A DNA stretch of 64,000 nucleotides from Ulota crispa. Its lineage: Eukaryota > Streptophyta > Bryopsida > Orthotrichales > Orthotrichaceae. A model generated the notes under the pieces. That model had not been told where the DNA came from. It saw only the letters and a program-made list of their open reading frames with translations, and made no database searches. Below are positions 85 through 56,400 of this stretch, piece after piece. The number at the start of each line of letters is the position of its first letter. Position 1 is the stretch's first letter. The stretch is from assembly GCA_963920765.1 (NCBI GenBank), contig OY987247.1, positions 7,722,471 through 7,786,470 on the forward strand, written 5' to 3'. The position numbers and the translations under genes were made by a program.

Positions 85-632
85 TTAACCCCTAAACGTC
101 CAAGGGGGTAAGGGCAAAATATAAATGCATTATAAAATGATACTTATGTAACTTTGATGAAGTTTGCTTCCAAAAAGAAAACAAGAATCATGATGTTTAG
201 TAATTATCCATATAATCAAACATTCAAAAAAAGTTTTGGATTTTTATTTAATGAATTTAGAAGCATTTACCATTCAATATTCACCAAAATTACAAATTTT
301 ATTCATATATTTTGAAATTTGGTATGATTGGTTAAAAACAGACATTCTACTGTAAACTCCAAAAATGCAATGTTTTCAAAGGAGATAACATCATTAGTTT
401 CCCGAAATATTAAGTTTTACAACAATAGCAAATATTGAAGTGTTTGTCTTTGAAAAGTTCTCCTTGATGGAGTTTAACTTGGATTGACATGATTCAAGTT
501 GAGTTGGAAAGTAGACTTGGATATCTATTTAAAGGTTCTTTTAATAATTTCAAATAGTTTTTTTTCATTGCGGGTAGCTTGCAAAAAGCGAGCAATGACC
601 AAAAAATGGTCGATTGAGCGCTTAAGGGTTAA
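85..632. mobile_element. Candidate TTAA-flanked element, 548 bp
   Basis: The left end is TTAACCCCTAAACGTCC and the right end reads AGCGCTTAAGGGTTAA. Read inward from the right, the sequence is TTAACCCTTAAGCGC followed by a hairpin with stem GACCA/TGGTC. Both ends have the same layout as the better-supported TTAA elements farther along. The interior is AT-rich and not coding. The two ends could also belong to two different broken elements. Confidence 0.4.
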
Positions 633-734
633 GTAGCCCTAACCTTGAAAAAGTCAAAATAACGCATTCCAAAGCACCTATCCTTGCTCATGGTGGAAAT
701 AACACAACTTACTGATTGGGAATGGGGCACTATT

Positions 735-1135
735 GGCAATGGGTGCTTGCACCTTAGTGTACTTCAAGGTCTCAAAAAATTTAGGGAAAAAATCCGTAGG
801 GTTAGCATTTCAACAAGCTATCATGGAACTTAATTTTTGTGAAAAAAAATGTTGTAGATTATTTTATTTTAAAGGGCAAAGCTGCAGCTCATAAGGTCTA
901 TATTAGCAACTCTAAACTAACCTTGAAATTGCTTGGATGTGTTTTTATACATGCACTTGATCATGATTTGAATCCCGACCTTCCCAAACTAGCTCCTATG
1001 CTAACATTTGGCAAGATTTGCTTGTACAAGTGGAATTCACTGCTCCACTTTAGGTTCATAATGAGTGGTGAACACCTCAAAAGTAGGGTTCGACTTTGGG
1101 ACTGCTCATGTACGGGAATGGTTACCTTACTACAT
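735..1135 (-). repeat. Dispersed repeat, family G, copy 1
   Basis: This segment is the reverse complement of sequences at 43.70-44.11 kb and 47.26-47.65 kb. Shared blocks include TAGCAACTCTA, the stretch around TTTCAACAAGCTATCATGG, and a TTGTACAAGTGGAATTCACT-like block. The 124-codon open frame across it (839-1213) lies inside the repeat and resembles no protein I know, so it is not called as a gene. Confidence 0.45.
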
Positions 1136-1149
1136 GGTTGCTTGTACAC

Positions 1150-3952: not shown

Positions 3953-4861
3953 TTAACCCCTAAAAGCCCAAGGAACCCACTTTGAGCTCTATGAAAACTC
4001 GGGGAGGCTCTATTGACTCCATAATTTGGAAATTTTCATGAAACTTTTAGGATGGATGCTACTCATCATAATCTACATGTGAAGCTTTATTTCATGTCTA
4101 GTGCAAAAGTTATAAGGTTTTTTCAATTTCAATGTCAAACTAGGCATCAAAAATTGTATTCTAGTTTTTTTTTTAAATTTTTTTACATAATTTTATAGAT
4201 TGATACCTACTCAAAAAAAGTTGAATAACTGAATTCCAAATAATGAGGTAAGAGTTACAAGGAGTTTTCTTTTGCAGGCAATGAAGGTAGGAAGAGGGTA
4301 GAAATAACATATAAAGTTATCTTTTACTCTCAATTTTGAAAAATTACAAATGAAAATGAAATGGAAAGTCACTAATTGTCTGTTAGAGCATTCTCACCAT
4401 TGGGATTAACAAGTTTCAAATTCTTCCAAAACTTATTAGCATATTAGTTATATCTTTCATTCATCAATACCTTTCACTCTACAACTTTTGTAAAAATGAA
4501 TGAAAAAAAAATTTGGTTAAATTTTTTTATATATGCTTTCAACCCATTTTTTGACATATTGAAAAAAAATCACAAGAAATACAACATATGGGTTTTTTTC
4601 TAAAAAGTTTGAAAATCAAAACTTCACCTTTTGGAAGGACTAGAAAAACCTACATTTTGAAGTTTAGGCACATTGATCTTGCTATTGGTGGGGATGTTCA
4701 TTTTGAAATTTTGGGATAGTGTACTTGTGCAAGTCAACCAAAGAATCCTATGGTTGGATTTGTTAAAAAATAAGTTTCAGTGAAGATTTTGACCGTGGTT
4801 TGGGGACTAGTATTTTGAAACAGTTTTGGGCCTCTAAACACAAAAGAATTTTAGGGTTTAA
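3953..4861 (+). mobile_element. TTAA element, family A, copy 1
   Basis: It starts TTAACCCCTAAAAGCCC and ends near TTTTAGGGTTTAA. Other full copies lie at 9802-10711 (opposite strand), 12356-13278 and 52451-53364 (opposite strand). Just inside the left end a hairpin can form between CCCAAGG-type and CTTTGAG-type arms; the stem is cleaner in copy 3. TTAA flanks and CCC/GGG termini fit the piggyBac superfamily. No transposase frame is present, so this is a non-autonomous copy. Confidence 0.75.
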
Positions 4862-5892: not shown

Positions 5893-6142
5893 GGGTTAAG
5901 GTAGGAGGCTCTAATTCGGTCTAGGACTCTAATTTGGTTCAGCTCTTGGAAGGGCTGACATGTTGCTTCAAATATCTATTATTGTCATTGATGAGTTAGG
6001 TGGATTTAGCAAGTTAACCTAATTTGCTAAGCCCACTTAATTCATCAATGACAGTAATAGATATTTGAAGTAACATGTCAACCCTTCCTAGAGTTGAACC
6101 AAATTAGAGCCCTGGACCAAATTAGAGCCTCCTACCTTAGTT
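5893..6142. mobile_element. Foldback MITE, about 250 bp
   Basis: Two arms of about 115 bp are near-perfect inverted copies around a centre at about 6017. The outer ends are TAAGGTAGGAGGCTCTAATT and its complement. A fragment of the same end lies at 22396-22445 (AAGCCTCCTACCTTAA). No target duplication could be read with confidence, so the superfamily is open. Confidence 0.7.
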
Positions 6143-9801: not shown

Positions 9802-10711
9802 TTAACCCCTAAAATTCTTTTGTGTTTAGAGGCCCAAAACTGTTTCAAAATACTAGTCCCCAAACCATAGTCAAAATCTTCATTGAAACTTGTTTTTTAA
9901 CAAATCCAACCATAGGATCCTTTGGTTGACTTGCACAAGTACACTATCCCAAAATTTCAAAATGAACATCCCCACCAATTGCAAGATCAATGTGCCTAAA
10001 CTTCAAAATGTAGGTTTTTCTAGTCCTTCCAAAAGGTGAAGTTTTGATTTTCAAACTTTTTAGAAAAAACCCATATGTTGTATTTCTTGTGATTTTTTTT
10101 CAATATGTCAAAAAATGGGTTGAAAGCATATATAAAAAAAATTTAACCAAATTTTTTTTTCATTCATTTTTACAAAAGTTGTAGAGTGAAAGGTATTGAT
10201 GAATGAAAGATATAACTAATATGCTAATAAGTTTTGGAAGAATTTGAAACTTGTTAATCCCAATGGTGAGAATGCTCTAACAGACAATTAGTGACTTTCC
10301 ATTTCATTTTCATTTGTAATTTTTCAAAATTGAGAGTAAAAGATAACTTTATATGTTATTTCTACCCTCTTCCTACCTTCATTGCCTGCAAAAGAAAACT
10401 CCTTGTAACTCTTACCTCATTATTTGGAATTCAGTTATTCAACTTTTTTTGAGTAGGTATCAATCTATAAAATTATGTAAAAAAATTTAAAAAAAAAACT
10501 AGAATACAATTTTTGATGCCTAGTTTGACATTGAAATTGAAAAAACCTTATAACTTTTGCACTAGACATGAAATAAAGCTTCACATGTAGATTATGATGA
10601 GTAGCATCCATCCTAAAAGTTTCATGAAAAATTTCCAAATTATGGAGTCAATAGAACCTCCCCGAGTTCTCATAAAGCCCAAAGTGGGTCCCTTGGGCCT
10701 TTGGGGGTTAA
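9802..10711 (-). mobile_element. TTAA element, family A, copy 2
   Basis: Reverse-complement copy of the 3953 element. It starts TTAACCCCTAAAATTC and ends TTTGGGGGTTAA. It shares with copy 1 the absence of a short ATTCCAATAAATA block that copies 3 and 4 hold, so copies 1 and 2 are the closest relatives. By eye they are almost identical through most of their length. Confidence 0.76.
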
Positions 10712-11948: not shown

Positions 11949-11950
<2 letters not shown>

Positions 11951-11983: not shown

Positions 11984-11988
<5 letters not shown>

Positions 11989-12355: not shown

Positions 12356-13278
12356 TTAACCCCTAAAGGCCCAAAGAGCCCACTTTGGGCTTTATGAGAA
12401 CTTGGGCAGGCTCTATTGATTTCATAATTTGGAAATTTTTCATGAAATTTTTAGAATGGATGCTACTCATCATAATCTACATGTGAAGCTTTATTTCATG
12501 TCATTCCAATAAATAATGCAAAAGTTAGAAGGTTTTTTCAATTTCAATGTCAAACTGGGCATCAAAATTTTTTTTTATTTTTTTATTTTTTTATTTTTTT
12601 ATTTTTTTATAGAATTGTATAAATTGATACCTACTCAAAAAAGGTTGAATAACTCAATTCCAAATAAAGTTACAAGGAGCTTTACTTTGCAAGCAATGAA
12701 GGTAGGAAGAGTGTAGAAATAGCATATAAAGTTATCTTTTACTCTCAATTTTGAAAAATTACAAATGAAAATGAAATGGAAAGTCACTAATTGTCTGTTA
12801 GAGCATTCTCACCATTGGGATTAACAAGTTTCAAATTCTTCCAAAACTTATTAGCATATTAGTTATATCTTTCATTCATTAATACCTTTCACTTTACAAT
12901 TTTTGTAACAATGAATCCAATTTTTTTTGGTTAATTTTTTTTATATGCTTTTAACCCATTTTCCAACATATCACCAAAATTGCACAAGAAATACAACATA
13001 CATGTTTTTCTCTAAAATGTTTGAAAATCAAAACTTCACCTTCTTCAAAGGACTAGAAAAACCAACATTTTGAAGTTTAGGCACATTGATCTTGCAATTG
13101 GTGGGGATATTCATTCTGAAATTTTCGTACAATGTACAATACTTGTGCAAGCCAACCAAAGGATCCTACGGTTGGATTTGTTAACAAGTAAGTTTCAATG
13201 AAGATTTTGACCTTGGTTTGGGGATTAGTATTTTGAAGCAATTTGGGCCTCTAAAAGCAAAAGAATTTTAGGGGTTAA
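12356..13278 (+). mobile_element. TTAA element, family A, copy 3
   Basis: Begins TTAACCCCTAAAGGCCC and ends TTTTAGGGGTTAA, both flanked by intact TTAA. Directly inside the left end, arms CCCAAAG and CTTTGGG can pair around a six-base loop. It includes a TTTTTTA-type run at 12570-12610. It encodes no protein that I recognise. Confidence 0.78.
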
Positions 13279-15130: not shown

Positions 15131-15540
15131 TTAACCCTTAAACAATCACAAGGAATCGTAAATCTTGGTTGTATTGTAATTCTACATTGACATAAGTTTG
15201 ATTTTTGTTCTTTTTTTGGTGCGGATTGTGAATCGGAGCGGCTAGACAAGAGCACTTGCTCTTGGCACCCCGGCAGCGTGTTCATTTTGGGGATTCACCG
15301 CAGGGTTCCGTAAGTTGCAAATACGCTCCAGTTACGTATTCATAGCCCACCTCCAATACAAATGCTTTGCAAAATCAGAAAAACAATTGTAGAAACATGC
15401 CGAACATTGCAAAAGGTGGAAACGAACAACAATACACAACCCTCAAAAATCCAAGCAAAATCCAAAACAACGACATCGCTAAATACGGGATAAATACCCT
15501 ATTTTGACCGCAGCGGCACGCTAGGTTGTTTAAGGGTTAA
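15131..15540. mobile_element. TTAA element, 410 bp, GC-richer core
   Basis: The ends are TTAACCCTTAAACAATC and, read inward from the right, TTAACCCTTAAACAACC. That is 15 of 17 matching positions with TTAA on both sides. The core (about 15215-15360) is much richer in G and C than its surroundings and includes a hairpin AAGAGCACTTGCTCTT. The core may have been captured from elsewhere. No coding frame is seen. Confidence 0.66.
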
Positions 15541-15959: not shown

Positions 15960-16898
15960 TTAACCCCTAAAGGCCCGTTGTCCTTTTGAGGATTGTTTGG
16001 GTTTTGGTCATGTACCTATGAGTAAACTACTTTATGTAATTTTCTAAAACTTTTATGGGAGATGGGGAATTCAAAGACCTACGTGGGCATCAAAAAAATT
16101 CTTCATTTTGACATTTATTGAAGAAGTTATGCATGTTTTTTCTGAAATTTTGGAGAGGGCTGCCCATTTGGGCAGCCCAAAAACTTCTTTAAAAATTGTA
16201 TATTTTTAAAATAAAATTTTGAAACTAGTTCTTTAGATTTTTTTCATACATGAGAAGTTTGAATCATTCAATTTCAATGAATGACATGAAAGTTATAAGG
16301 AGTTTTTGTTTGCGGGCAATTATGGATTCTCTACTCTAAAATAAACTTTGAAGTCCTTTACTATACTCAATTTTTGGTATTTTGGGAAAAAAACTAAAAA
16401 AAAGAAGTAGATTGTTTATTACAACATTATAACCGTTGGGATTTGCATTTTTCATTTCAATAATTAAATTCTTAACAATTTAGTGTTTTGACCATTCTCT
16501 ACTTCTTTTTACTTACTAATTTTTCCCATGTGTTGTATAGTTCCAATTGATTTGAAAATTCTCCTACACATACCTAACTTGGTCGTCTACATGGGGAAAA
16601 AAAAAACCTCAACTTTGCGTAGAGCAAATTTTTTGATATAGGAGTGGTCAATGGCATCTGAAATTTTTGGGCAGTATGAAAAAAAACTTTTTCCTTCACT
16701 TCATTTGTAAAAATCTCACTCCTTGTCATTTGGAATAAGCTCAATTTTTTTCCCAAGTACCTCATGCTATCTAGAGCAAGATCCTACAGTTGGATTTCAA
16801 ATATATATATATATATATATTCCATTACTCTCATTCCCTCAAAAGTGGCAGTTTTCATTGTTTTTCACAAAAAAATGGCTTGGGCCTTTAGGAGTTAA
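15960..16898 (+). mobile_element. TTAA element, family B, copy 1
   Basis: Begins TTAACCCCTAAAGGCCC and ends GGCCTTTAGGAGTTAA. A small hairpin (TCCT/AGGA) sits at the same place inside the left end as in families A and C. The interior differs from family A but matches the element at 18575 (shared GAAGTTATGCATG and CAACTTTGCGTAGAG blocks). It contains an (AT)n tract at about 16801. Non-autonomous. Confidence 0.72.
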
Positions 16899-18574: not shown

Positions 18575-19339
18575 ATAACCCCTAAAGGCCCATTCTCCCT
18601 TCGGGGGATAAATGGGATTTTGGGCAGGTACCTATGGCTAAACTATTTTGCATGATTTTTTGAAACTTTTATTGAAAATGAGGAATTATAAGATCTGCAT
18701 GGGAGTCTAAATTCTCCTTCATTCTGACAATTATTGAAGAAGTTATGCATGAATAACTGAAAAACAGGGGAGAATCGGGCAGCAAAAACAAAAACAAAAA
18801 TTGCAAATATTTTCAATAAAATTTTGAAATTGGTTCTTTAAATTTTTATGTATTTGGGAAGCTTTGAATCATTCAATTTTGATAGATGAGATGAAAGTTA
18901 TGAGAAGTTTTAGTTTGCGGGTAGGTATGGGACTCCCGAACCTCCATTCCTTTTCCCCCTTGTAAAACTTGTTGCTTTACTTTTTTGAGCTCTTTGTGTA
19001 TTTGATTTTTGACTTTTTTTTTGCAAGTTGTAGTAGACTAAGATTCCTTGGTTTTCACCATTTGGATCAAAGTAATTTGGGTTTTTGAATTTTACATAAA
19101 TCCTCCAATTTTGCCTCGTGTATATGCAAATTTCATGACCTTATGGCATTGTAGGATTTTACAAAGTATGATCCACGCCTCCATTTCATTAGAAAATTCT
19201 TCCACAAAATAAACCTCAACTTTGCGTAGAGTAATTTATTTGCTATAGGAGCCGCCAAAGGCTTCTAAAATTTTTGGACAGCACAGAAAACAACTTTTGT
19301 TTTCACTCCCCCAAAAGTGGCAGTTTTGAGTGATTTTCA

Positions 19340-19372
<33 letters not shown>

Positions 19373-19390
19373 TGAGCCTTTAGGGGTTAA
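18575..19390 (+). mobile_element. TTAA element, family B, copy 2
   Basis: Starts ATAACCCCTAAAGGCCC (one base off TTAA) and ends GCCTTTAGGGGTTAA. The left end carries the hairpin TCCC-TTCG-GGGGA. Interior blocks are shared with the 15960 copy. It contains a 30-base A run at 19341-19370. Confidence 0.68.
19341..19370. repeat. Poly-A tract, 30 bp
   Basis: Thirty consecutive A residues inside a family B element near its right end. It is probably a slippage expansion, since copy 1 has a shorter run at the same place. Confidence 0.95.
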
Positions 19391-19855: not shown

Positions 19856-20770
19856 TTAACCCATTTTGTCAAAAGATACTCAAAACTGCTACCTCTAGGG
19901 CAAAGAGTAAAAAAGTTTGAAAATCAAGCATTTTGCATATCTGACCATAGGATCTTGTGCTAAATTATTATAAGAATGTGTCATATAAAACTCAAAAATT
20001 TTAACCGCACAAATTGGAAGATATTTGCATTTAAAAAGTAAAAAACAACTTTTTTTGCACCTTGCTTGATTAGATTTTTTAACTTTGAACATTTTTAACT
20101 TAAAATTTTTGCACCACAGAGTTTGGAATTCTATTTTTGCATGGTGGGAAGTTGAGTTGGTAATGTTGGGAAATAAAATAAAATAAAAATAATAATAAAT
20201 TTTCATTCTTAAAAAAAAACATTAGGTAGAAGAAGGTATGAGATTGAACATAAACTTAAATTGCTAATTACGCTGCAATGGAATTGAAACGCAATAATCC
20301 CAATGGTGAGATTGTTCAAGAAAGCAAAGTTCACCCTCTCCAACAATTTTTTTTGGAAAAATGTTAAGCTTGCACTCAAAAATGAAGTTTGTAAGTTATT
20401 TTTTCAAGAAGATGCTTGAGTTGCCCAAAAAACAAGATTGTCCATAACTTTCTCATAACTAGTCCAAATGGAATGAATCAAAGCTTCAGAAGTAGATAAA
20501 GATATAATCTATGAGAAAAAAAAATTAAATTTTTTTTTCAAGTTTAGATAAGGATTTTTTTTGCTGCCCCTAGACCCCAAATTTGTGCTTATTTGGGCAT
20601 AACTTTTGCTCCTTGGCATCAATTGGAATAAAAATTATATTCCCCAAAAGATAATGTGTTTTTCTATCTTCAAAAAAAGTTTCAAAAAATTAGGACAAAA
20701 ATTGAGGCCATAGGTACGTGCCTGAAATCCCATTTGTCCCCCGAAGGGACAATGGTCCTTTAGGGGTTAA
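19856..20770 (-). mobile_element. TTAA element, family C, copy 1
   Basis: Reverse orientation. The right end reads inward as TTAACCCCTAAAGGACC and then forms a seven-base stem TTGTCCC/GGGACAA around TTCGG. The left boundary is TTAACCCATTTTGTC. The element at 23377-24308 is a homologous copy on the other strand. A frame of about 100 codons (19895-20206, minus) is also present in the other copy but shows no sign of protein-level constraint. Confidence 0.77.
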
Positions 20771-20959
20771 CTCTTGAACGGCCCATCAATCATCTTTGGC
20801 CGTATATACAATCTTATTTGAGCTGTTCTGAGGGTTTTCCAAAAAAAAATTATGCATCCACCATCATACAACCCTTCAACATGTATGATTGTAATACTTA
20901 ATTTTCAACTAATTCAAACTTTTGAATATTGATTGTGACCGTATTTGGTACCGTATCTA

Positions 20960-21010
20960 GAGCCCAAGCCCAAGGGCCCTTTGGGGGTTAAAGCAAACAA
21001 AGAAATGTTA
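20960..21010. repeat. Solitary TTAACCCC-type end
   Basis: Read from the right, TTAACCCCCAAAGGGCCC is followed by TTGGGC. It has the layout of the hairpin end of the TTAA elements (perfect palindrome AAGGGCCCTT), but no partner end was found nearby. Confidence 0.4.
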
Positions 21011-21908: not shown

Positions 21909-22142
21909 TTAACCCTCAAACGTCCATAGGGCATAGTATATACTTTGATGTATAATTGTTATTTGCTTCCAATAAGAAATTTTAATTTGGGATCTCAAGT
22001 AGCTCACTAGAACCGCATTGATATATTCTCCAACTTCTTTGTTGGTCTCAAATGTAATAGAGGTGTGGATCCATTACAAATACAAGGAAAGTACCCCATA
22101 TTGTATTGGTCGGAGAGGTGTGCTCAAACGTTTAGGGGTTAA
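21909..22142. mobile_element. TTAA element, 234 bp
   Basis: The ends are TTAACCCTCAAACGTCC and, read inward from the right, TTAACCCCTAAACGTTTG. Both have TTAA flanks. This is the shortest two-ended TTAA element here. The left end resembles the left end at position 85. Confidence 0.55.
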
Positions 22143-23275: not shown

Positions 23276-24407
23276 TAGGGCCAGTTTCCATTGAGGGGCC
23301 GGAGGTCCAGGCTTCGGCTCAGTAAAACTTAACCAACATGCCTGGAGCACCTAGACTTTTGATTGGAGGTTGCTTTTTAACCCCTAAAGGACCATTGTCC
23401 CTTCGGGGGACAAATGGGATTTCGGGCAGGTACCTACAGTTTCAATTTTTGTCTTAATTTTTTGAAACTTTTTTTGAAGATAGAAAAACACATTAGCTTT
23501 TGGGGAATATAATTTTTATTCCAATTGATGCCAGGGAGTAAAAGTTATGCCCAAATAAGCACAAATTTGGGGACGAGGGGCAGCAAAAAAAATTCTTATA
23601 AAAACTTGAAAAAATAAATAAATTTTCTTTTCTCATAGATTATATCTTTATCTACTTCTGAAGCTTTGATTCATTCCATTTGGACTAGTTATGAGAAAGT
23701 TATGGACAATCTTGTTTTTTGGGCAACTCAAGCATCTTCTTGGAAAAATAACTTATAAACTTCATTTTTGAATGCAGATTTAACATTTTTTCAAAAAAAA
23801 ATGTTCGAGAGGGTGAAGTTTGCTTTCTAGAACAATCTCACTGTTGAGATTATTGTGTTTCAATTCTAGTGCAAGGTTATTAGCAATTTAAGTTTTTCTT
23901 CAATCTCATACCTTCTTCTACCTAATGTTTTTTTTTTAAGAATGAAAGTTAAGTATTCTCTTTTGAAATTTTTACCCAAGATTCCCAACTCAACTTCCCA
24001 CCATGCAAAAATAGAATTCCAAACTCTGTGGTGCAAAAATTTTAAGTTAAAAATGTTCAAAGTTAAAAAATCTAATCAAGCAAGGTGCAAAAAAAGTTGT
24101 TTTTTACTTTTTAAATGCAAATATCTTCCAATTTGTGTAATCAAAGTTCTTGAGTTTTGTATGACACATTCTTATAATAGTATAGCACAAGATCCTATGG
24201 TTAGATATGCAAAATGCCTGATTTTCAAACTTTTTTACTCTTTGCCATAGAGGTGGCAATTTTGAGTGACTTTTGACAAAATAAAGGCCATGGTCCTTTA
24301 GGGGTTAAAATGTACATGGTTTGGGAATTTTAAATTTTTTTGTTCCTCTACCCCGGTTAGGCCGGATGTCCAGTTCAATCCAGGCCCTCAATGGAAACTT
24401 AGCCTTA
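23275..24407. mobile_element. Inverted-repeat element H, split by a TTAA element
   Basis: The left end GGGCCAGTTTCCATTGAG and the complement of the right end (GGCTAAGTTTCCATTGAG) match closely and face inward. Between them lies the complete TTAA element 23377-24308, so that one inserted into this one. A matching end occurs at 47194-47220. The superfamily is not determined. Confidence 0.5.
23377..24308 (+). mobile_element. TTAA element, family C, copy 2
   Basis: Both ends are intact: TTAACCCCTAAAGGACC on the left, and GGTCCTTTAGGGGTTAA on the right, an exact inverted match over 17 bases. The stem TTGTCCC/GGGACAA follows the left end; no equivalent hairpin follows the right end. It is the cleanest TTAA element of the window and looks young. 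Confidence 0.82.
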
Positions 24408-34800: not shown

Positions 34801-37800
34801 ATCATTGTGGACATTTGTAATCCTTATGAACTAATCGTTTAGGACAGATTTTTTTTGTGACGCTTTGTTATAAAAAATATATGTTTTTTTGAACTAGTGC
34901 ATTCACATATTGTTCAAGCATGAATTTTGCACTTTCAAATGATGCATTACAAGTAACAGCTCTGTTATAGAGCTTAATCAGAATATAAATAAATAAAACA
35001 AGTACCTGTAAAACAGCTTCTTGCATTTTTTCTATTTCTTTTCTAAATGCTTCTTGTTTTTCTGCCCTCTCTTTAGCAGCAGCAAGAGCTGCTTTTTTGG
35101 CTTTTTTCTAATTGAAATGAAGCACGTTTATAGTTATTATGTGTTTAATTGATTTTTCAAGTTAGATTTGAAAAATAAAATCGAAAGTGTGAAATTGTAC
35201 GTTAAAGTCACTAATACAAACTTTAAAGAAAAAGAAGCTTTACCGCAGTTATTTCTCTTTCTTTTTGTAACTTCAATTCCTCTTCATGTTGTTTCCTGAC
35301 TAATGCTTCTGCTCGTCTTTCCAATGCTTCTTCCTACTACGCAAAAATTTTAAAAAAGTATTTCTCATATATATACAAATATCCCTATATATGTATACAC
35401 ACATTTTTAGATTTATTACTATTATCATTTGTAAGCATTTATTTGATATGTTTTTCTGATTTTTTGCATTTCAATCACTAGAAGAAAAACAAATATAAAT
35501 AACTAATTTACAACAACTGTAAATGCCATAAACAATCGTAACTGAGTCATTTCATATTCATTGTATAGTTTTATAGAACATTTGCAATTGCTGTGAACTA
35601 GTCATTTAGGATCGTTTTTTCTCCAAGTGAACACCTAGTTTTAGTCACCTTGTAAATAACCCATTTCATTCCAAACGTTTAGCATAGTGTACCTCTTCAC
35701 GCTTTCTTGCTTCATTAGCAGCTTGTTGTGCAGCAAATTCTTTGTCTCTTTTCACTTTTTCTGCTTTCTGCAATCATAAATGTATTAAAAATGGGTATTA
35801 CACATTAATTTCTATACGTATTTGAAAACCAACATGGTCTTAAAAATACAAATGTCTTTTGCAAATTTGATCAATATTGGTTTTTATATGAATATATACA
35901 TGTATGTATGTACAATATTAAAAAATTATTACTTGTGCAGCTTCCTTTTTCATTTGCATTGCAGCAACTCTTGCCGCATCTTCTTGCATTTTCTGACACG
36001 TTTCTGATATTTAGAATTGCAAGTAAAATAAATTCTAGATTAGGATGCATCAAACTCCTTCTTTTGCCAACAAAAAATCATCAATTTTGACATGCATTCA
36101 TTTTTTAATCAATTTAGTGCATGACGCTGATAAGAGCAACTAAAATGCTGCAATAAGAAATACTAAAGCACAATACACATACTCATTGGCTCAAAAACAG
36201 TATCACTATGAAGAAAAAAAAACCCAAGTTTCATCCTAGTGATCTTAAATTTTTCATAACTCCTTTTTATGAAAAAGCACTATACTAGCCGCTCAAATTC
36301 GGTAGTTGTTGATTATTACAAGTGTCATGCACCATACAAACTTTCATGTATAAATTATCAAATGAATATTTAAGACGTACTTTAGTTGCTACTTCTGCTG
36401 CTGCTTTCTTTTCCCTTTCTTTTTCAACGCGCCTTCTAGCAGCATCAGCTGCTTGAAGAGCCTGTTCAAGTTTTCAAAGTTTTAAAATGTGACAAATTTT
36501 GAATACAATAATAGAGAAACTTGTCATTAATTATACTCGGAACTAAAAACACAAAAAAAAACGTTGATAGGTATATTTATAACGATAGCAAAATTCCACG
36601 TGCATTACAATTGATTATAATTTACAACATAGATTTTGATGAAATTTAATATAAAACTCGTTTCATCATGTCTAAATGGTGTATTGAACCATAACTTGGC
36701 TTACCCAAGGTTCAATAGTAACATTTCAAAAATTCAACTTCTAAAAACATATTCAAGAGATTTGGTAATGCTTAACCCCTAGCTAGAAGCCCATTGTCCC
36801 TATACGGGACATATTAGATTTTGGTCAGACTTGCTCTATAAGGATTTTTTATTAATTGATTTGAATTCTGATACAGATTTTTGCAAGGGCTATGGGGAAG
36901 TACATTTTTTGTTGAAATTGGATTCATAGTTCAAAAGTTATTGTGTTTTATGTGCTTTTTTTTTGTTCAAGAGCCAGGTTAGGCATGCCATTTTTTATGA
37001 ACTTTTCTCAAGGGCCACCAATGAAGGCATGATCCTTCACTAAAATGTACCCAAAGTAATAGTGTACTTGATAAATCCTTTTTTGTATTTGATAAATACA
37101 TTAACTTTTGAATTGCAATAACTACTAGAGACTTGATTTTTTTTCAAATTTTCTTTTTTTGTGGTTGTTTAAGAAATCAGAACCTTCCAATGTGCTATTG
37201 GGATTTTCAAGTTATCAAAATCAGACATTGGAAATTTGATTTACAAAAAACCTTAGTGTAGTGAGATATTCAAGAAGATGTTTGGAATGCATGCCATGAA
37301 GGGAGTGTTCCAAGTCTTTATTGGCCATGAAAACTTATGCATTACAAGGGATTTGGACCCCCAAAGAGGCCCCTTCCCCCAAATCCATGGGAGCTTTGGG
37401 AACACCTTCCACATGTACGTTGACCATGTCATCTTGTATTATTTTATTATTTATTATTTTATGACAAAAAAATTCAAAAAAAAAAGATTCAAAAAATTTC
37501 TTATTTTTTTCTAAGATTTTTTTTTTGATTTTTTAAAAATTAATTTTTTTGACGACTAGCAAGGGCTAGTTTCCAACATTGGGAACAGAAAAACTCACAT
37601 TCCCTATGGGGGTCCAAATCCCTTATAATGAAGACATGCCCAACATGGTTTAAAGCATGTTGGACAAATCTTCCTTGAATCTGTAGTGCAAAATGTGCAC
37701 AATATGTGGTCAAAGGGACTTGAAAATTTTGGGCAAAGGTCAAATTTTTTTTTTTGTATACTAACTTCAAGTATTCACATCTCTCAACTTGTGCAATCAA

Positions 37801-40641
37801 ACTTCATGAAAATTTCACCATGACTTCTTGCATATATCTAATGCAAGATCCTATGGTTAGATTTTAGAAAAGAAAGAAAAATAGTGTTTTTGGGATCAAA
37901 TGACTAAAAATGACAGTTTTCAATGATTTTTCAAAAAATATATGAGCTGGCCGTTTAGGGGTTAAAGCACCAACCTAGTCTAGAAATACACAAAGAGTTC
38001 ATAATTGGGTATACATATCATTTAGATGTTTTTTTAGTTGATTTTTTTCAATATAGTTTAAGAACATGAATCATTTGAAATGTGTGAGAGCATTTTTGGC
38101 GTTGCCTTGTGTAGATATGACACACTTTAAGTATGGATGATATGTGTTCTAAGACCTTCAAAATACTCTCATGGCTTTTCATCCTAACATGTCAAGCAAT
38201 GGTCCTTCAAAATACTATTCATCCTAAGTTTAGTGAGCTTTATCCTATATTATTTTTAATAAATGGTCAATTGACTAGTTATGGGACACATTTGAAGTGC
38301 AAGATAATGTTTAGTATTTTGGCATAAATTTGCCAAAATCTTCCTTCAATTTGTGACTAGTTGCTACAACACTAAAGAAATTAGGTAAAAAATAGATGAG
38401 GTTGCTAAACCCCTCCCCAAGCAAACAATAGGTTTGCTAGAATTTGGATGAGTAGATTTTATTAATAGATGAATATGCACATGTTGTTGGTTCAATCCAT
38501 TTCTATCCAATTTTTTCTTACCTACTTGCAAGAACAAAATTTAGAGGCTAATGCAAGCGTGGAGACAAAAAATTTGAGGACCCCTAACAATAGATGTAAT
38601 CTCTTGACGAGTCAAGTTTGAAATGCAACGCTAAATATGCACTAAGCTATAAATCAATAATTTTTAACCAAACATTTTTGTATAAAAATTTAAATGAAAC
38701 CTTAGCAGCAGAATCACTAGGCTTTCCAGCTTCACCAGATCTGGCAGCATCAGCCCCCATAACTTTTCCATCTGAAACTAAAATACTGCCCGTATCTTTT
38801 TCGGCTATAATTCGATTTCTTTCCACAATTAATCTATCTACTTTCTCTGCAAAATCATAAGAAAAATAAGAAAAGACTAAAAAGAAATAATTACAAATGC
38901 TTTTATTTGTCAGCTAATATAATTTTATATTGAATTATTTCTGAAAAATAATGGATTTTTATCACACATATCAAATCATTAATGGAATGTTATACAAATA
39001 GAAATCTTAGTTCTTTACATTATAACAAAAAAGTGTCCTAAACAACTGGTCTACAATGATTGCAATCGTCCATAACTACTATCAAATGATTCAATTTTAG
39101 TCATTTGCGGACATTTGCAGTCATTTGAACTTGTTGTTTAAGACATGTTTTTGTTGTAGTGTTAAAAAAATGAAATTTTGTAAAAGGACCTTTTCTTTCT
39201 TTTTCGTGGTATTGAAATTTCATTCCTTGAAATTCTTTTGACAACCCTCTTTCTGTAAAGTAGGTGAAGTCTCTAAAACAAAATTGACATATGTAAAAGA
39301 AGATTTAATTGCTATGTCCACATTGTAAATATCATAATTCGTATTAATACTTTTCCTTACCATGTGTTTGGTTGAATTACTTGTTGGTTTAGTTTCACTA
39401 ACATATTTTTTCATATATTGACTTTATTTTATTTTATTTTTCTTTATTATATATAACAAAGTGACTATGGTATAGAGAGAGGTTTGTTTTTACTAAAATC
39501 AATAATATCTGATTTTACCGGTATTGGATTTCTTCCGGATCGATGCCAAGGAGAAGACATGCTTGTAATGATCTTGGGGTATTTACAAGCTCACCAGGTT
39601 CTGCTTTATCTGATATATTCAAATATGTACAAAAATATTAAAATCTCAACTTTTTATGTAATGATTTTTCAAGTAAGTTAAATTTAAGCATGTGTAAGCT
39701 TATTCTAAACATTGGTAACATTAATTGTTGCCTTTTTGTTTGCCAAAAAATATCACAGAATGAATGGGTTGTTCAAATAATACAATGTGACTTATAAATA
39801 ATATTGTTACTTGATCACGAAAAAAAATTGCTTAATGACCACATACATTAGTCATTGCTAAAATTAACCTGTTCGTTATTTTAACCCTTTTGTATGTTTA
39901 CTATATATTTGAAACATTAAATTTCAATGGTGTTGAGCATTAGATGAGATTATAGCAAGTTTGTTTATATTATAAAGCATAAGTTGTGTGTTTATTAGAC
40001 AATATTCAAATTTCTCTTTTAACACCAAAAGTTTCAAATTCAATATTTTAAAGTTTGTTTAGGATTACATCATAGGATTAATACTCCCTTGATAAAGATC
40101 ATGAAATGGAAATCGAGAGAGACAACGCAAAGCTTGTACAAGACATATTTATTTTAATAATTAATGGCATACACAAGTTAATAGTATAATTAAGATACTT
40201 ACCAAGGTCGGTAATTGATAAATCTCTTTTTGCCACACCTACTCCTTTGTGGTATGTAGCAACCTAATAATAAAGACATACATAACAAAGAATTATTTGG
40301 AGTATCTAAATTCATTCAAAGCAAACTATTTTATTGTGTTTTTGTTTGGTACTATCTATTTAGAAATAAATATTGCAACTTGAGCACAATGACCTGATAG
40401 TTGGGTATTGAAGTAGTACTTGGTTTAAAAAGGTGGTTGCAACAAATATAGCATTTAGCTTGTAATAAGTGTTTTGCCAATTTAATTAGGTTTTGAAGTT
40501 GAAGTTTGAATGAAAATTAATTCTAAATGATTAAAATGAAAAATTTCAACTAACCTTCCAAGCTTTGAGCATTTGATCGGCCCATTTGTCCGGATGGACC
40601 GGCTCATGGGTCCATCCTCCGGGTGGAGCAACATGAACCAT
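31841..40641 (-). CDS. Coiled-coil, probably ciliary protein, 14 exons, 496 aa
   Basis: Exons, in order of translation: 40555-40641, 40203-40263, 39519-39600, 39190-39272, 38701-38846, 36381-36461, 35933-35992, 35693-35767, 35244-35333, 35006-35107, 34232-34426, 33490-33630, 32874-33020, 31841-31981. All introns are GT-AG and every phase agrees, giving one frame from ATG (context AACAATGG) to TAA. Exons 6-14 are all multiples of three with phase-0 borders. The N-terminus (MVHVAPPGGWTHEPVHPDKW) is compact. Residues about 56-73 read NTPRSLQACLLLGIDPEE, a motif I associate with coiled-coil proteins of ciliated eukaryotes such as the CCDC177-type family. From about residue 98 on, the protein is a Lys/Glu/Ala/Gln/Arg-rich helix typical of a long coiled coil, with a short Gly/Ser break at 124-150. 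I infer a role in the axoneme or basal apparatus of motile sperm. The gene model is strong; the function is inference. Intron 5 (2.2 kb) is the longest and holds a TTAA element. Confidence 0.85.
32283..32696. mobile_element. CACTA-ended MITE in intron 13
   Basis: Starts CACTACAAGAAAAAAATG and ends TTGTTTTTTCTAGTG. The interior holds a second, longer inverted repeat (arms around ATAATTGCCTTATAAG and CGTAAGACAATTAT), so it may be composite. The three-base flanks do not match, so the superfamily rests on the ends alone. Confidence 0.55.
33709..33856. repeat. 18-bp minisatellite in intron 11
   Basis: Eight nearly identical 18-bp units (ACATAAACATGTGCATGC). Each unit has palindromic ACATGT and TGCATGCA parts with alternating purine and pyrimidine. 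Because 18 is a multiple of three and no unit contains a stop in most frames, several open frames appear on both strands. They are artefacts of the repeat. Confidence 0.95.
33900..34200. repeat. Family J repeat, copy in intron 11
   Basis: The pyrimidine-rich stretch at 33945-33990 and the following GGTGACAAAGAAACGTCCAAT block match 41.7-42.0 kb (GGTGACAAACAAACATCCAAT). It is therefore a dispersed repeat inside the intron. Confidence 0.4.
34714..34863. mobile_element. CACTA-ended MITE in intron 10
   Basis: About 150 bp with degenerate ends (TTACTACAAAAG, and TTTTTTTGTGACG). The interior matches the 35476 and 39017 copies: TCCTCAATGATCACAATTG, then GGACATTTGTAATC. Confidence 0.5.
35476..35629. 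mobile_element. CACTA-ended MITE in intron 8
   Basis: Starts CACTAGAAGAAAAAC and ends GTTTTTTCTCCAAGTG. Flanks AAT and AAC are close to a three-base duplication. The interior is related to the intron 4 and intron 10 copies. Confidence 0.55.
36772..37965 (+). mobile_element. TTAA element, 1194 bp, in intron 5
   Basis: Begins TTAACCCCTAGCTAGAAGC and ends GCCGTTTAGGGGTTAA. The stem TGTCCC/GGGACA follows the left end around a TATAC loop. The interior is unlike families A-C, apart from right-hand blocks such as CAAGATCCTATGGTTAGATTT. A second inverted repeat lies inside (around TTTGGACCCCC at 37350 and GGGGGTCCAAA at 37610). It sits in the gene's longest intron. Confidence 0.72.
39017..39162. mobile_element. 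CACTA-ended MITE in intron 4
   Basis: Starts ACATTATAACAAAAAAGTG and ends CATGTTTTTGTTGTAGTGT, an inverted pair with four mismatches in about 20 bases. The interior matches the other three small elements of this gene. Confidence 0.55.
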
Positions 40642-41593: not shown

Positions 41594-42130
41594 TTAACCC
41601 CCAAATGCCCACAACATCATATGCTCTTTTTTTTTCAACTATTTACTGTATCTTCTCCAACTTGTTTCTCTCTTTGTCTTTTTTTTTCACCCTCCTTTTC
41701 CTCACCTTTTCCTCTCCCTCCTCCCAAATTTCTTGTGACTTTTCAACCTCCCTTTCTTGACCTTTTCTTCTCCCTTCCTCCTCTCTATTAGAGAATTTCA
41801 AATTTCTGGTATCAAAATAGAATTTCAAGTATCTTATGATTGAAATAGACTACACTTGATGCTTTATAATTGAGATTTTAAGAAAACTTTATAATATAGA
41901 ATTTAGACTTTATGGTAATATCGGAGAAGTTTGAGTTATGGTGAAATACTTCCAGGTGACAAACAAACATCCAATTTAACACTCTTTACTAATAGACGCG
42001 CACCCAACATTTCATAATAGAGAATTTTATATCTTTGGTGTTCATAGAGAAAATTTCAATCTATCTCCTATCGGCTATCTATATAACAAAATTCAAATTT
42101 CAAATTTACTACGTGGCGATCCTTTTACTG
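41594..42130. repeat. Family J repeat, copy 3, with a solitary TTAA-type end
   Basis: The left border TTAACCCCCAAATGCCC is a single TTAA-type end without a visible partner. A pyrimidine-rich tract (41640-41790) follows, matching 17.8-18.05 kb in reverse complement. The remainder matches intron 11 of the coiled-coil gene. Confidence 0.42.
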
Positions 42131-47260: not shown

Positions 47261-48103
47261 TCTTGTAAAGTAGACACACCCATTCTCGACCTCTCCCCAA
47301 TCCTGCACCCTAGATTTGAAACTTTCACCACACAATGTTGAACTTGTAGTGGAGTAATGAATATCACTTGCACAAGCAAATTTTGCCACATGTTAGTTGG
47401 TGAGTTGCTATAAGACGGTTGGGATTGGGACCATCTAGTGCCACTATGGGAACATATCCAAGCAGTTTCAAGGTTAGTGTAGAGTTGCTAATAGGGATCC
47501 TATGAGTTGCATTTTTGCCCTTTAATATAAAATAACCTACAAATATGTTTTTTCACAAAAATTATATTCCATGATAGCTTGTTGAAAGGCTAACCCTATG
47601 GAATTTTTCTAGAATTTTCCAAAACCTTGAGGTACCTCAAACCCAAATGCCTAAGCAAACCAAAATAGTCCCGATTTCCGTTTTATTTGGAAACCCTAGG
47701 CGCTTAGGGGTTAATCCTTAAAGGAAGGATGGGTCACCGTGGTATGCACTGCTTGTAGCAGTCTATAGTGTTTTTGCACATTGATACCAGTAGTATTGCT
47801 TCAAAAAGTTGGAAAAGTTGACAATGCAAGCTGATCCCATGAAAATTGCAATAAGGGCAGTTTGGGACCTAACATCGTGATTTTGAATATTTTCACACTT
47901 TGGGGTACCTAAAAATATGAGTATATTTGATGAATTTTGTTTTTGCCTTCCATGATGTACTACGTGTTTATGATCACTTCTGGAAAAAAATTAGATGAGA
48001 ACAATTCTTTTCTAAGCTACAAAATTTTTTTTCAGAGCCAAAGGACAATTTTTTTGTCCTTTTGGATGTTTAGGTTTAAATGGTCGGGTATGGGTTTGTC
48101 TAC
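47261..48103 (+). repeat. Family G repeat, copy 3
   Basis: Left end AAAGTAGACACACCCATTC and right end GGGTATGGGTTTGTCTACCTT are inverted matches of about 24 bases, so this is probably a complete DNA element of about 845 bp. The first 400 bp match copies at 43700 and 735. A solitary TTAA-type end lies inside at 47690-47714 (reading inward TTAACCCCTAAGCGCC). Confidence 0.5.
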
Positions 48104-48154: not shown

Positions 48155-48962
48155 GCCTCATTCTCATTGGGACGTTCACCAGCCGTTGAGTCAGCCGTGA
48201 TCACTGTTCTACATGAGTCACACGGATTCTCATTCTCATAGGCAAGGTGCGTGAGAGGAATATATATGAATAAAAACACACAAGCATAAACTAAATACAT
48301 AAGCAAAAACTAAAAGTACAAGAAAGTTTCAAATCCCCAATACTAAGAAGGTTCCACATCATTATTGCCACCTTTTGAGGTCATACATGGAACCTTCTCA
48401 ATAGTTGCTTGAAATGGGGAAATGCATCATATGAGAGAACTTGTTTTATTGACACATTCTAAATACTGTACGTTTGAAGGCCCATTCCCATTGCACAATT
48501 GGACGTGTTTGGGTGAGAATCTTTTTGTCTTCTTCCCTGACATGGGTTCACCAACATGGGTTTGAAATGAGTCTCTTAAACATATTTAGAATGCATGAGT
48601 AAAACAAGTTCTTTCATATGACGCATTCCCCCATTTCAAGCAACTAATGAGAAGGTTCCATGTATGACCTCAAAAGGTGGTAGTATTGATGTGGGACCTT
48701 CTTGGTGGTGGAATTTTGAAACTTCCTTGTGCTTTTAGTCTTTGCTTGTATATTTTTGTTCATGCACATTCCTCTCAAACATTTTGCCAATGATGTGACT
48801 CATCTTAGAACAGTGATCACAACTGACGAATTGTTGGTGGACGTCCCAATGAGAATGGGGCATGAAAGACTCATTTCAAACCCATGTTGGTGGACCTACA
48901 CCAAGAAGAAGACAAAAAGATTCTCACCCAAACACGTCCAATTGTCCAATGGAAATGGGCCT
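48155..48962. repeat. Long imperfect palindrome with a 100-bp terminal inverted repeat
   Basis: The arm at about 48155-48465 is repeated in inverse orientation at about 48590-48865. Separately, 48477-48585 recurs inverted at 48870-48962 (ends AAGGCCCATTCCCATTG and GGAAATGGGCCTT). The part 48477-48962 therefore resembles a Mutator-type element with long terminal repeats. The left arm is a rearranged piece of another copy. No frame of note. Confidence 0.62.
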
Positions 48963-49744
48963 TAACCCTTGAGCGTCTCAGCGCCCCATATATTGCCTCC
49001 TACTATTTTCAATTCTTGTTTTGAGGGACTAGATCTAACTTTTTGGTCTTACTTTACACTACAACTATGAAGGCATTCAAGTTGTCCATGCCAATGGAGT
49101 AATGGCAAGGAAAGCCAAATGTTGTACAAGTGCTACAAGAGATTTGATTGGGTGAAAACATCATATGGGGAGTGGTGGCACCGTATAAGGCGTGTTAGCA
49201 AGTAGTGTTTTACAAACTACAACCGATCAATATCCCTTGCAAGCTTCCTTGTTTAAGCTTTGTGGTAGCGGGAAAGTTCTCAGCAAGGGTTCAAACATGT
49301 TCTGGACCCTTATTATGGCAACCGTCACCAATTGTGCCGGTCATTGTTTTCTGTGCAATAGCGATTTGAAACCCTAAAACTTGACATAAAAAGAAGTGCA
49401 ATCTTCAATAATTTACAAGTGTGTGCGTTCACATCTAATCTTGCTACTCACAAAATTTGAGATGAATCCGAGGCTTATAGAATTTTGTAAAAATCATCAA
49501 ATCGCAACGACCTACCAAAAAATGAGGTTTTGTCATCACATGTTGTTTGATCAAATGTTATAATCTCCCATCTCCTGCGGTAAATTGTTCCCAAAATTTT
49601 CAAACCATTTTCTAAGTAAGTGCTCTACTACTTTCAATGGCCACTTTTTGTGGATCATCCGATTGATCGAGATACAATACATTAAAGTGGTCGGTCTCCA
49701 AAAACCTTGATTTTTGTGAAAACAGCCTCGGCGCTCAGTCATGT
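48963..49744. other. Intergenic, solitary TTAA-type end at left
   Basis: TTAACCCTTGAGCGTCTC at 48962 has the layout of a TTAA-element end, but no partner was found. The rest is intermediate in composition, with no recognised gene. Confidence 0.35.
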
Positions 49745-52450: not shown

Positions 52451-53364
52451 TCAACCCCTAAAATTCTTTCATGTTTAGAGGTCCAAAATTGCTTCAAAAT
52501 ACTAGTCCCCAAATTAGGGCCAAAATCTTCATTGAAACTTACTTTTTAACAAATCCAACCATAGAATCTATTGGTTGACTTGCACAAGTACATTGTTCCA
52601 AAATTTCAGAATGAATATCCCCACTAGTTGCAAGATCAATGTGCTTAAACTTCTAAATGTAGACTTTTCTATTCCTTTCTAGAAGGTGAAGTTTTGTTTT
52701 TCAAACATTATAGAGAAAAACACGTATGTTGTATTTCTTGTGCAATTTTGGCAATATGTTGGAAAATGGGTTGAAAGCATATATAAAAAAATTAACCAAA
52801 AAAATTTTGGATTCATTTTTACAAAAATTGTAAAGTGAAAGGTATTGATGAATGAAAGATATAACTAATATGCTAATAAGTTTTGGAAGAATTTGAAAAT
52901 TGTTAATCCCAATGATAAAAATGCTCTAATAGACAATTAGTAACTTTAATTTTAATTTGAAAATTTTCAAAATTGAGAGTAAAAGATAACTTTATATGTT
53001 TTTTCTACCCTCTTCCTACCTTCATTGCCCGCAAAATGAAAGTCCTTTTAACTCTTACCTCATTATTTGGAATTGAGTGATTTAATTTTTTTTGGCTAGG
53101 TATCAATTTATAAAATTCTATTATATATATATATATATATATGTATATATTTTTTGCTGCTTGGTTTGACATTGAAATTGAAAAAACCTTCTAACTTTTG
53201 CATTACTTATTGGAATGACATGAAATAAAGCTTCACATGTAGATTATGATGAATAGCATCTATCCTAAAAAAATTCATGAAAAATTTCCAAGTTATGAAT
53301 CCAATAGAGCCTGCCCGAGTTCTCATAAAGCCCAAAGTGGGCTCTTTGGTCCTTTAGGGGTTAA
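52451..53364 (-). mobile_element. TTAA element, family A, copy 4
   Basis: Reverse orientation. The right end reads inward as TTAACCCCTAAAGGACC and then the CCCAAAG-type hairpin arms. The left end has TCAA instead of TTAA. It includes a (TA)n tract near 53125. It lies about 85 bp upstream of the helical-domain locus. Confidence 0.74.
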
Positions 53365-53499
53365 AAGACAATGCTAGAAATCCTTGAAGTTGCATCTAGT
53401 GTTGATACTTGGTGCATTCTCATTCATTGGTAGTTATGAATTGATGGCTTGTGCGTGATAACATGTTGTCAATGCTTTGCAGCAATTCACTTAGTAGAT

Positions 53500-56400
53500 A
53501 TGGATGCTCTTTCATTGGTGTTAGAGTTTGGGAAAGGGTTGTGGAGTTTGAAGACCATGTACGAGCAACATGGTGACAACAAAAAGGGTATGAAGGAGCT
53601 CGTGAGTTTCATTGAAGATTATGAGCAACAGATTCCAAAGTTAAGAGACCGTTTCAAGGGAAGTGGGGGTAATGACCTTAGTAATTTTGCCTTGAAACAG
53701 TTGGAAAGGGATATCTTAGAGGCCAACAATGAGCTTGGAAAGTTGTCACAAAAGAAGAGATTCTTTCAAATATTCAACTCAAATGAGAGGAAGGAGAGTA
53801 TTGCAAAGTTACACATGAAGGTGATGGCATTTGTGCAAAAGGCTTTGGGACTTGCAAGCCTGTCCATGCTCTTAGATATAAAAGCAAGTGCTTTGGAGTC
53901 ACATGAAGAGTTGAAAGCACTTATAATTTCTTGCATTGGGAGCATGCAAGGGCCAAAACTTTTGGAAGTGAGAAATGAGGTGGTGCAAGCATGCGCTTCT
54001 ACCCATGTAGAAGAAAAGTTTTGGCAAGACATTTTGGCAGCGGTGGACAATCAATGTGATGCACTTATGTCACAAGAGACATTGGATTTGTATCATGATA
54101 CCATAACAACAAAGTTGATGATTGATCCAATTACAGCCATAGATGGAAACACGTAGTGTTGATGGACAATCATTGACAACAACTTGACAAAGGATCCTAG
54201 TAATCCTAATGTGGCCTTGTCCATTATGATAGATAATTTGACTATCCAGAGAAGTTTGTTTGAGAGATTTCCAAATCAAGCCAAGAAGTTCCGTTCCTGT
54301 CGCAATGAGTACCGAAGACAGTCATTGTCATTGGCACGGGAAGGATTTTGGGGTGATGCAGCCTTGGGTTTGCAACACGTTCTTGAATGGGATAAAAATG
54401 ATGGAGAGTGTGATGCCACTTTACAACAAGTGCAAGAAGCTCTAAAACAAGCAAGAGAAGTTTTTGTTGAACTTTCAGCAATGACATCAAATGTGGTATG
54501 TTGATTCCTTGGACTTGTGATTTTGTTGTACATTTGAAAAACCTTGGAGAAGTGCCATATGTTTGAAAGTGAAATGAAAATTTGGTGAGAGGAAGTGGTG
54601 CATTTGAAGGATTAGAGAGAAACCATTTGGCTCTAGGTGCAATTGTGAAAATCTTGTCAAAGAGATAGTTTCAATGAAGGTCTATAATGGAGTTGATGAA
54701 GATGGTGATATTCATTATATGGTTGTTGTGCTTTAAAGTCTAGTTGATTATTCCTTGAGAGTAGGTGATGATTATCTTGCAAAGTTGAAGTTGTCATCTT
54801 TATTATCCTATTTTGAGTACTTTTTGAGTTGTCTATTACAAGATGAATATGGAAGACTCACAAGTAGTCTTTGAAAATAGAGTACTTCATAGTGGCACAA
54901 ACAACTTGTATTGAATGGTTAAATTGCATGTTCTATTGAGGAGCTTGAAGTCCCTAGGTTCTTTTAGGCTTGTATCAAAATGGGATGTTTTGCACATTTG
55001 TTTCAATTTCAATGATTGCGATTAGAATACTATTTATTCAATTACCTTGATATAGGAGATTCTTTGAAAAGGCAAGCAATGGAGGATCAATAGATTCTTG
55101 TAAGAGAAGAAAGCACATTTAAAAGTACCATTTAGCAAGGCACATATACTTAACCCTTTAAGAACCTCGCAACCATATTTTGGTCGCTAGGAGTAGTTTT
55201 TGGCTTGTAGGTTGAAATCGCTCAATAATTTGCAATTTGATCTTGAATTACGCATGTGATCTCAAGAATTTTGCATCTATTTCAAAAAATAACAATGCAG
55301 TCGAATATGTGAGTTGACAAATAATGATGTTTATATGGCATGGCTTCAAAATACGTATCCATATTTGGTCAAAGATGGATCAAAGCAACAACACAATACA
55401 TCAAACATCTAAGAAGAATGTCAAATTTCAATTGCACAATTCTAAAAAAAATCAAATTGCTTAAGAAATATGCTTGTATGGTTTTCTTATACGGTAGTAG
55501 TATAATTGTAGTATTTGAAGATCTACTTAAATGGTGTTGTCATTTTGGCTTTAGAATACATCATCCTACATCTAAGGCCAATTCTTGATTGCTTTTACCA
55601 ATCGGATTCTCCATAACAATTATCAAATTTCTTGAAGAAATGTTTTAGGGTAGCAAAGAAAATGGGATTTTTGACCCTTTTTGTCCACTTAGCTACACCT
55701 TGTAATTGCTATTTTTGTTTATTTTATGTGAAACTAGTCTTGTTGGAAAGGTGGGAAACCTTGCTTTCTAGAAATGTAAGGCTCTTTTCAATCAAAGCTT
55801 GCATGAAGCGGTAACAATCAAAACCACACAAGCATGAAACACTAGAGATTTTTTGCATACAGCTCACTCAATCATTATTATGTTTCACCTCCAGCAGTAG
55901 ATCTAGCTAAAATTTTGGTGCTTTAAAGTGAACAACTTGTACTTCCCATTTGTACGGTTGGATTACTGAAAATGGGTCCATATTTGAGTTAATTGCACAT
56001 CTAAGCTTTCAGCCCTTGTTTTTAGTGGGTTTTGTGAAAATGAGTGTGGTCCTTAAAGGGTTAAATTGCACAAAACATTGACATTGAAGATGTGTGTTAA
56101 TTTTTAGGTATTGGGTAAATGTGCAAATGCCTTGCAATTTGCAAAGAAGGTAGATGAATCTAAAGATAATAATCCTTTGGTATTGAGCAATAGATGGAAA
56201 GAGAGCCTAATCAAGTGGTCCTAACCAACTTGTGTATACCAATTAATTCAACTTTATTTAAAATGTTCTAGTCAAGGCACTCAACATAATTATGTTGATA
56301 GGAGTCTTGTATCCTAATAATGATAGCATTCATGTAATGAATGATGTACGTGTTTGAGGATGGAGGGCAAATTTCTATATATGCTACGTAAAGATTGAGC

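Follow-up and report, generated by a model that had tools for sequence, protein, structure and literature searches.

TTAA-flanked elements of the moss Ulota crispa as piggyBac-type miniature transposons with larger transposase-bearing relatives

Introduction

In the published work nearest to this study, a well-defined piggyBac transposon measures ~2472 bp, CCCTT is the commonest 5′ end motif in animals and TTAA the usual duplication, and long animal elements, 5.60-9.51 kb in size, are described as having single open reading frames (ORFs) (PMC10813416). Miniature inverted repeat transposable elements (MITEs) derived from piggyBac are described in corals (PMC2872659), and a review names PiggyBac among the angiosperm MITE superfamilies (PMC10004981). 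Here we describe a 64,000-nt stretch of the genome of the moss Ulota crispa (C6:7722471-7786470, termed the window), together with searches of the genome (274.8 Mb, 157 contigs). The PsaB encoded by the plastid contig C157 agrees with a moss host, as its top matches among solved structures are the Physcomitrium patens entries 7ksq, 6l35 and 8htu (1681 bits; 9lut follows with 1643). The window holds a set of elements bordered by TTAA, and these are almost certainly non-autonomous DNA transposons, or MITEs, of the piggyBac superfamily, with larger transposase-bearing relatives in this moss.

An initial annotation of the window held that piggyBac-type elements are poorly documented in land plants. 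This is fair, but they are not absent. In addition to the angiosperm MITEs, the fern Ceratopteris has 1230 PiggyBac fragments that make up 122 kb and 0.00% of the genome (PMC6890710), and a table for a grass has one PiggyBac of 75 bp (PMC8319324). In the passages available from two moss papers piggyBac is named solely as a tool (PMC5505980, PMC5253467), and a third paper, PMC10619864, matches through the word 'piggybacking' alone. No report of a native piggyBac in a moss was found among the matches listed from the full-text literature, a search outside of which lie Repbase-type libraries and most subscription papers.

The elements described here are similar to piggyBac of Trichoplusia ni (structures 6x67 and 6x68) and to piggyBat (9c0f) in transposase sequence, TTAA duplication and CCC-starting ends, but the large ones are 5.0 and 8.3-8.8 kb in size, and their putative 5′ exons lie at a long distance upstream from the main one. 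As the survey cited above already lists animal piggyBac elements in the range 5.60-9.51 kb, the large size is not new in itself; those elements are alike in size, TTAA duplication and CCC-type ends, whereas here the host is a plant and many MITEs are found beside the parents. The coral and angiosperm MITEs, compared by description and not by sequence, are likewise short non-autonomous elements assigned to piggyBac. Unlike them, the moss elements have parents in the same genome that share both termini, and their exact ends number ~31,000 over a genome of 275 Mb. Ceratopteris is also a land plant, but its reported PiggyBac share of 0.00% compares with a rough 5% here. The kind of element is already known, and the new part is the host and the scale.

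Paired ends in the window and in the genome

Elements are named here by their first position in the window. The 12 two-ended copies listed in the initial annotation all have two inverted TTAA-type ends where it had placed them. Five of these have one worn or shortened end: the right end of 3953 is TTAAACCC and that of 15960 is TTAACTCC, the left TTAA is ATAA in 18575 and TCAA in 52451, and 19856 is missing 19 bp directly inside its left TTAACCC relative to its sister 23377, to which it is 92% identical. Ends near 20990, 41594, 47714 and 48962 had been listed as single; the last three stay single, but the first closes a 225-bp element, 20767-20991. The end at 632 can pair with one at 85 to form a 548-bp element, a pairing that no second copy backs. 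The 14 elements, with 85-632 counted in, add up to 10,780 bases, or 17% of the window.

The interiors had been said to fall into at least six unrelated groups, and a BLAST comparison of the 14 elements bears this out, with seven components. One is formed by group 1 (3953, 9802, 12356 and 52451) and group 2 (15960, 18575, 19856 and 23377), which are joined only by a weak link, a 202-bp internal stretch of 67% identity between 15960 and 52451. The remaining six (36772, 55150, 15131, 21909, 20767 and 85) are singletons.

The outer end motif TTAACCCCTAAA has 13 exact copies in the window and 24 copies at no more than one mismatch. In shuffled versions of the window 0.82 matches are expected at that threshold, and none of 100 shuffles reached 24. 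Genome-wide, the exact 12-mer is found 30,972 times on both strands, and the same motif reversed 77 times. The motif count falls 70-fold when one base of the TTAA is altered: the TTAT variant has 440 copies, with 100 for its own backward control. A second end type, TTAACCCTTTA, has 4,325 copies vs 636 for its control. The first eight forward-strand TTAACCCCTAAA sites along contig C1, taken in sequence, all have an inverted partner downstream (232-1452 bp off, mean 877 bp, no more than one mismatch), and the reversed control motif has no match in these eight loci. Extrapolation from the eight loci, with at most two exact ends assumed per element, suggests roughly 15,000 copies or more, which would amount to roughly 13-14 Mb, or ~5% of the genome.

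The ends include the sequence CCCTAAA, the plant telomere heptamer, whose presence may be due to chance or to a link with telobox-binding proteins, and the motif could for this reason be taken for a telomere-like satellite or an artefact of base composition. That explanation has next to no probability and is refuted by the ends themselves, which are paired, inverted and interspersed, have empty sites (see below) and lose their 70-fold excess upon a one-base change in TTAA.

Transposase genes between TTAACCC ends

A search of the genome with the PF13843 profile, which scored 116 of 528 candidates and hence sets a lower bound, gave at least 120 match rows, every one above the curated cut-off (best E 1.3e-73). 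Stops lie inside the match in 110 of the 120 rows. The initial annotation had proposed a search of the same genome for a piggyBac-type transposase between TTAACCC ends, and this is what was found: PF13843 sequences are present within the ends of five large elements, A to E.

Over an alignment of 5,029 bases, elements A (locus L009) and B (L018) have 90% identity. Their flanks are unrelated, and their homology stops at TTAA-CCCCTCATCGCC on one side and GGCAATGAAGGG-TTAA on the other. At a further five loci, named C to G (L026, L038, L025, L034 and L011, in that order), the sequence 3′ of the transposase ends in TTTAGGGG-TTAA. A search for the opposite end was made at three of these and succeeded at each, which yields elements of 8,530 bp (C), 8,255 bp (D) and 8,829 bp (E), with TTAACCCCTAAA at both ends. 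TTAACCC is absent within 1.5 kb of the transposase in 25 of 30 loci because the elements are longer, and larger flanks reached the ends for some of these.

An ORF in element A is similar to two transposases of known structure, piggyBac (6x67, E 1.6e-25) and piggyBat (9c0f, E 2.7e-21). With the positions of the three catalytic aspartates presumed to be those of piggyBac, 31 aligned domains have the first D in 28, the second in 23 (7 with N, 1 with E) and the third in 26, departures that are compatible with decay. Judged by eye, TGA and TAG are commoner than TAA among the stops of the PF13843 rows; this excess, with the frequent N at the second aspartate, would fit C-to-T decay of methylated DNA.

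A conserved ORF that is apparently spliced, with 37-49% amino acid identity among C, D and E, is found ~3-4 kb upstream of the transposase exon (C in L054/L041, D in L053/L045, E in L055/L047). It has no Pfam match, and a rough hand-joined version has no match in the Protein Data Bank. Because a GTGAGT...TTACAG intron is seen behind an ATG exon in this region, the simpler reading is that the ORF represents putative 5′ exons of the transposase and not a second gene.

Two further observations concern the coding sequences. Element C encodes a Cys-rich segment that follows the main domain, a possible counterpart of the C-terminal cysteine-rich domain of piggyBac transposases; its only Pfam match, to the B-box, is below threshold (17.5 bits vs 27). 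The matched parts at C8:19570986-19572215 and C2:36765124-36766008 are free of stops and are possible intact or domesticated copies.

The assignment to piggyBac has to be weighed against Kolobok or another TTAA-using superfamily, as Kolobok is also known to use TTAA target sites. Elements bounded by these ends contain a PF13843 transposase, and both of their termini are matched by MITEs (see below). Although no search aimed at Kolobok was made, this source of the ends is highly improbable, and for group 2 it is refuted.

Empty target sites

For 12 window elements, the left and right flanks were joined around a single TTAA and compared with the whole genome; 85-632, which has no left flank, was omitted. 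From 40 of 2529 candidates scored, 41 rows were returned and 19 fetched (all 5 for 23377 and 14 of 36 for 21909). The empty sites are empty paralogues within one genome. Two of the 12 junctions, those of 23377 and 21909, have such sites among the rows returned, and both elements sit in other repeats. All 19 fetched sites align best with exactly one tetranucleotide, TTAA in 18 and TTTA in one: the five returned for 23377 hold a single TTAA, and all 14 fetched for 21909 hold a single tetranucleotide.

A junction search was also made for three large elements, A, C and E, with D left out as its flank contains another MITE end. Element E has one empty paralogue, on C9, at 76% identity and with the single tetranucleotide TTTA; no row spans the join for A or C. 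Window position 47267 was considered as an empty site for the left flank of copy B and was dropped, the comparison being unclear.

Thus the prediction of the initial annotation that empty sites keep one TTAA is borne out by the sites compared, with one tetranucleotide in all 19 sites for two MITEs and in the one site for E. Transposase sequence inside TTAACCC ends, terminal inverted repeats that start with CCC and the TTAA target-site duplication of two MITEs and of the large element E together support the piggyBac assignment made there.

Derivation of MITEs from the large elements

Alignment of 15960-16898 with element C gives 85% identity over bases 1-197 and 80% over bases 572-939, in both cases to the exact terminus, and the same arrangement is found with D and E at 74-79%. 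Because the matches run to the very ends of the parents on both sides, 15960-16898 is, judged by its sequence, an internal-deletion derivative that keeps the 5′ ~190 bp and the 3′ ~370 bp of its parents. The pattern of both ends shared and the interior deleted is weaker in 18575 and 23377. The 5′ ends of 18575, 19856 and 23377 are common with the C, D and E parents over 104-207 bp; on the 3′ side, the shared stretch is ~300 bp within the 3′ region for 18575 and 56-133 bp at the 3′ end for 23377. In 36772-37965 only the 3′ end is shared: bases 858-1194 (337 bp) are 74% identical to G 7305-7637 and have the same terminal TTAA. Shared termini with the clade of elements C to G, whose ends read CCCCTAAA-G, account for five window elements.

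A 726-bp foldback element is present at L039:1530-2255. It has TTAACCCCTAAAGG at one end, its halves are 96% identical inverted copies, and each half resembles the 5′ end of 15960 and 18575, as in two left ends placed back to back.

Transposase clades and inner end motifs

A tree was built from 31 transposase domains, and it has eight clades of at least two loci at a support of 0.99 or higher. The five loci with 3′ ends CCCCTAAA(G/A)G (L011, L025, L026, L034 and L038) form one clade with support 1.0. Transposase loci outside this clade have other ends, CCCTTTARYGACC, CCCTTCATTGCC and CCCCTAAATGCC among them. By locus, the inner ends are CCCTTTARYGACCATGG in L013 and L043 (with a variant in L027), CCCTTTAGTGTCC in L023, CCCCTAAATGCC in L012, CCCTATACTGCC in L016, CCCCTAAGCACC in L010, and CCCTTCATTGCC in L009 and L018 (with a variant in L014). 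In L009/L018, L012 and L023 the end lies within two bases of the point at which a sister copy ceases to be homologous; for L010, L013, L014, L016, L027 and L043 it is the nearest fitting end only. Of 12 loci extended on the 3′ side, six show a fitting end (L010, L012, L013, L016, L023 and L027), five do not (L015, L019, L020, L022 and L024), and L028 is doubtful.

As far as seen, transposase lineage appears to go with the inner end motif, which argues for several helpers that share the outer TTAACCC and not for one transposase. The initial annotation had suggested a single transposase that mobilises all families; with several clades and different inner ends, this is not supported as stated. 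On such a view a single lineage, the CCCCTAAA-G clade, would have mobilised every family in the window, with the outermost ~12 bp alone being sufficient. Mostly unrelated interiors do have TTAACCCCTAAA in common, and group 1, for which no parent was matched, has the same outer ends and the weak 202-bp link to group 2. Against this, the other clades have their own distinct inner ends, 55150, 15131 and 41594 have inner ends unlike those of the CCCCTAAA-G clade, and the sequence that group 2 and 36772 have in common with their parents runs to hundreds of bases, far beyond 12. A single lineage is thus unlikely. With several helpers as the favored reading, window elements whose inner ends differ may have relied on other helpers, and group 1 may have been cross-mobilised.

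Proposed history of the elements

The larger relatives, of 5.0 and 8.3-8.8 kb, would carry or have carried a DDD transposase. By analogy with known piggyBac, from which the cutting chemistry is taken, the enzyme would bind short ends that start with CCC(C/T)T, and the element would be cut out at TTAA and inserted into another TTAA, which then lies on both sides. Internal deletion of large elements, and perhaps also the capture of unrelated DNA between matching ends, could give rise to MITEs that the transposase still recognises, and these may have spread to ~15,000 copies or more. We infer that this activity is past rather than present.

Several observations weigh against this history and the assignment behind it. 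Ten of the 12 window junctions have no empty site among the rows scored, although at 40 of 2529 candidates this does not count as a negative. The left TTAA of copy B is now TTCA. Among the loci read, no parent was matched for group 1, 55150, 15131, 21909, 20767 or 85, and group 1 shares just ~20 terminal bases with the CCCCTAAA ends, in addition to the weak internal stretch with group 2. Ten of the 120 PF13843 rows are stop-free within the match, and among the loci followed no complete intact transposase gene is shown: the frame of L043 runs out and another frame continues, and L044 is split, with its C-terminus not resolved.

Individual elements of the window

Group 1 consists of 3953..4861 (plus strand, 909 bp, right TTAA worn), 9802..10711 (minus, 910 bp), 12356..13278 (plus, 923 bp, the exact 12-mer at both ends) and 52451..53364 (minus, 914 bp). 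The first two, inverted relative to each other, are 98% identical over their full length, and the first is 88.5% identical to a copy at L008. The third has 86-87% and the fourth 85-86% identity to the remaining copies of the group. As 3953 and 9802 are 98.1% identical (all other window pairs show 67-92%), recent movement or conversion is indicated for that pair.

Group 2 consists of 15960..16898 (plus, 939 bp), which is 82% identical to L006 over its full length, 18575..19390 (plus, 816 bp), which has the 5′ ~200 bp in common with C, D and E, 19856..20770 (minus, 915 bp), which shares 143-161 bp of 5′ end with D and E and is inverted relative to its sister, and 23377..24308 (plus, 932 bp).

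The other two-ended elements are more diverse. The 225-bp MITE at 20767..20991 (minus) has one TTAA in common with 19856-20770 and is 77% identical to L005:1501-1732, which is two-ended and 232 bp long. The 234-bp MITE at 21909..22142 (plus) has a second copy beside L028, at 79% over the full length. The MITE at 36772..37965 (plus) is 1194 bp long. That at 55150..56064 (plus, 915 bp) has TTAACCCTTTAAG ends and is 82% identical over its full length to a copy beside L024; it also matches part of L043 (84%) and part of L003 (80%), both matches reaching the locus edge. The 410-bp MITE-like element at 15131..15540 (plus) has TTAACCCTTAAACAA ends that match at 16 of 20 positions, and no second copy was found among the loci compared. 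The possible element at 85..632 (plus), of unproven pairing, is recognised by its ends alone, TTAACCCCTAAACGTCC and TTAACCCTTAAGCGC, and has no BLAST homology to the other elements compared.

The single end TTAACCCCCAAATGCCC at 41594..41619 (plus) is like that of L012 and matches an end in L039 at 92% over 26 nt. Further single ends are TTAACCCCTAAGCGCC at 47700..47714 (minus) and TTAACCCTTGAGCG at 48962..48985 (plus), the latter similar to an end in L050.

Other repeats and genes nearby

Separate foldback repeats of ~420 bp with GATTGATATGTGTACCACACCC-like ends are found at window positions 8038-8093, L047:2534-2949 and L045:1469-1846, and several copies lie upstream of piggyBac transposases. 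They were considered as 5′ ends of the transposase elements and rejected, as they stop around GATTGATA and have no TTAA border in the copies examined; they seem to be another family. The window also has an ORF with a Senescence_reg domain (PF04520, E 9.9e-45) at 26108-26941, a degenerate tandem array of the GAATCTTTGAGAATC type at 44453-44927 and an array of the 18-bp unit CATGCACATAAACATGTG at 33703-33861.

Significance

A broader picture may be proposed tentatively, with odds somewhat below even. Mosses would have a deep, plant-resident radiation of piggyBac with intron-bearing elements of 8-9 kb, the CCCCTAAA core, with little else, would let the enzyme of one clade cross-mobilise MITE families that are for the most part unrelated, and as a result piggyBac would form a main DNA-transposon load of this genome in place of the usual plant superfamilies.

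The piggyBac transposon is a workhorse of animal genetics, but descriptions of it in plants are few. With an estimated ~15,000 or more copies, several transposase clades and datable empty sites, this plant lets one ask by what route piggyBac entered plants, what became of it under plant DNA methylation, and whether a single enzyme can drive many MITE families by way of the short ends that they share.

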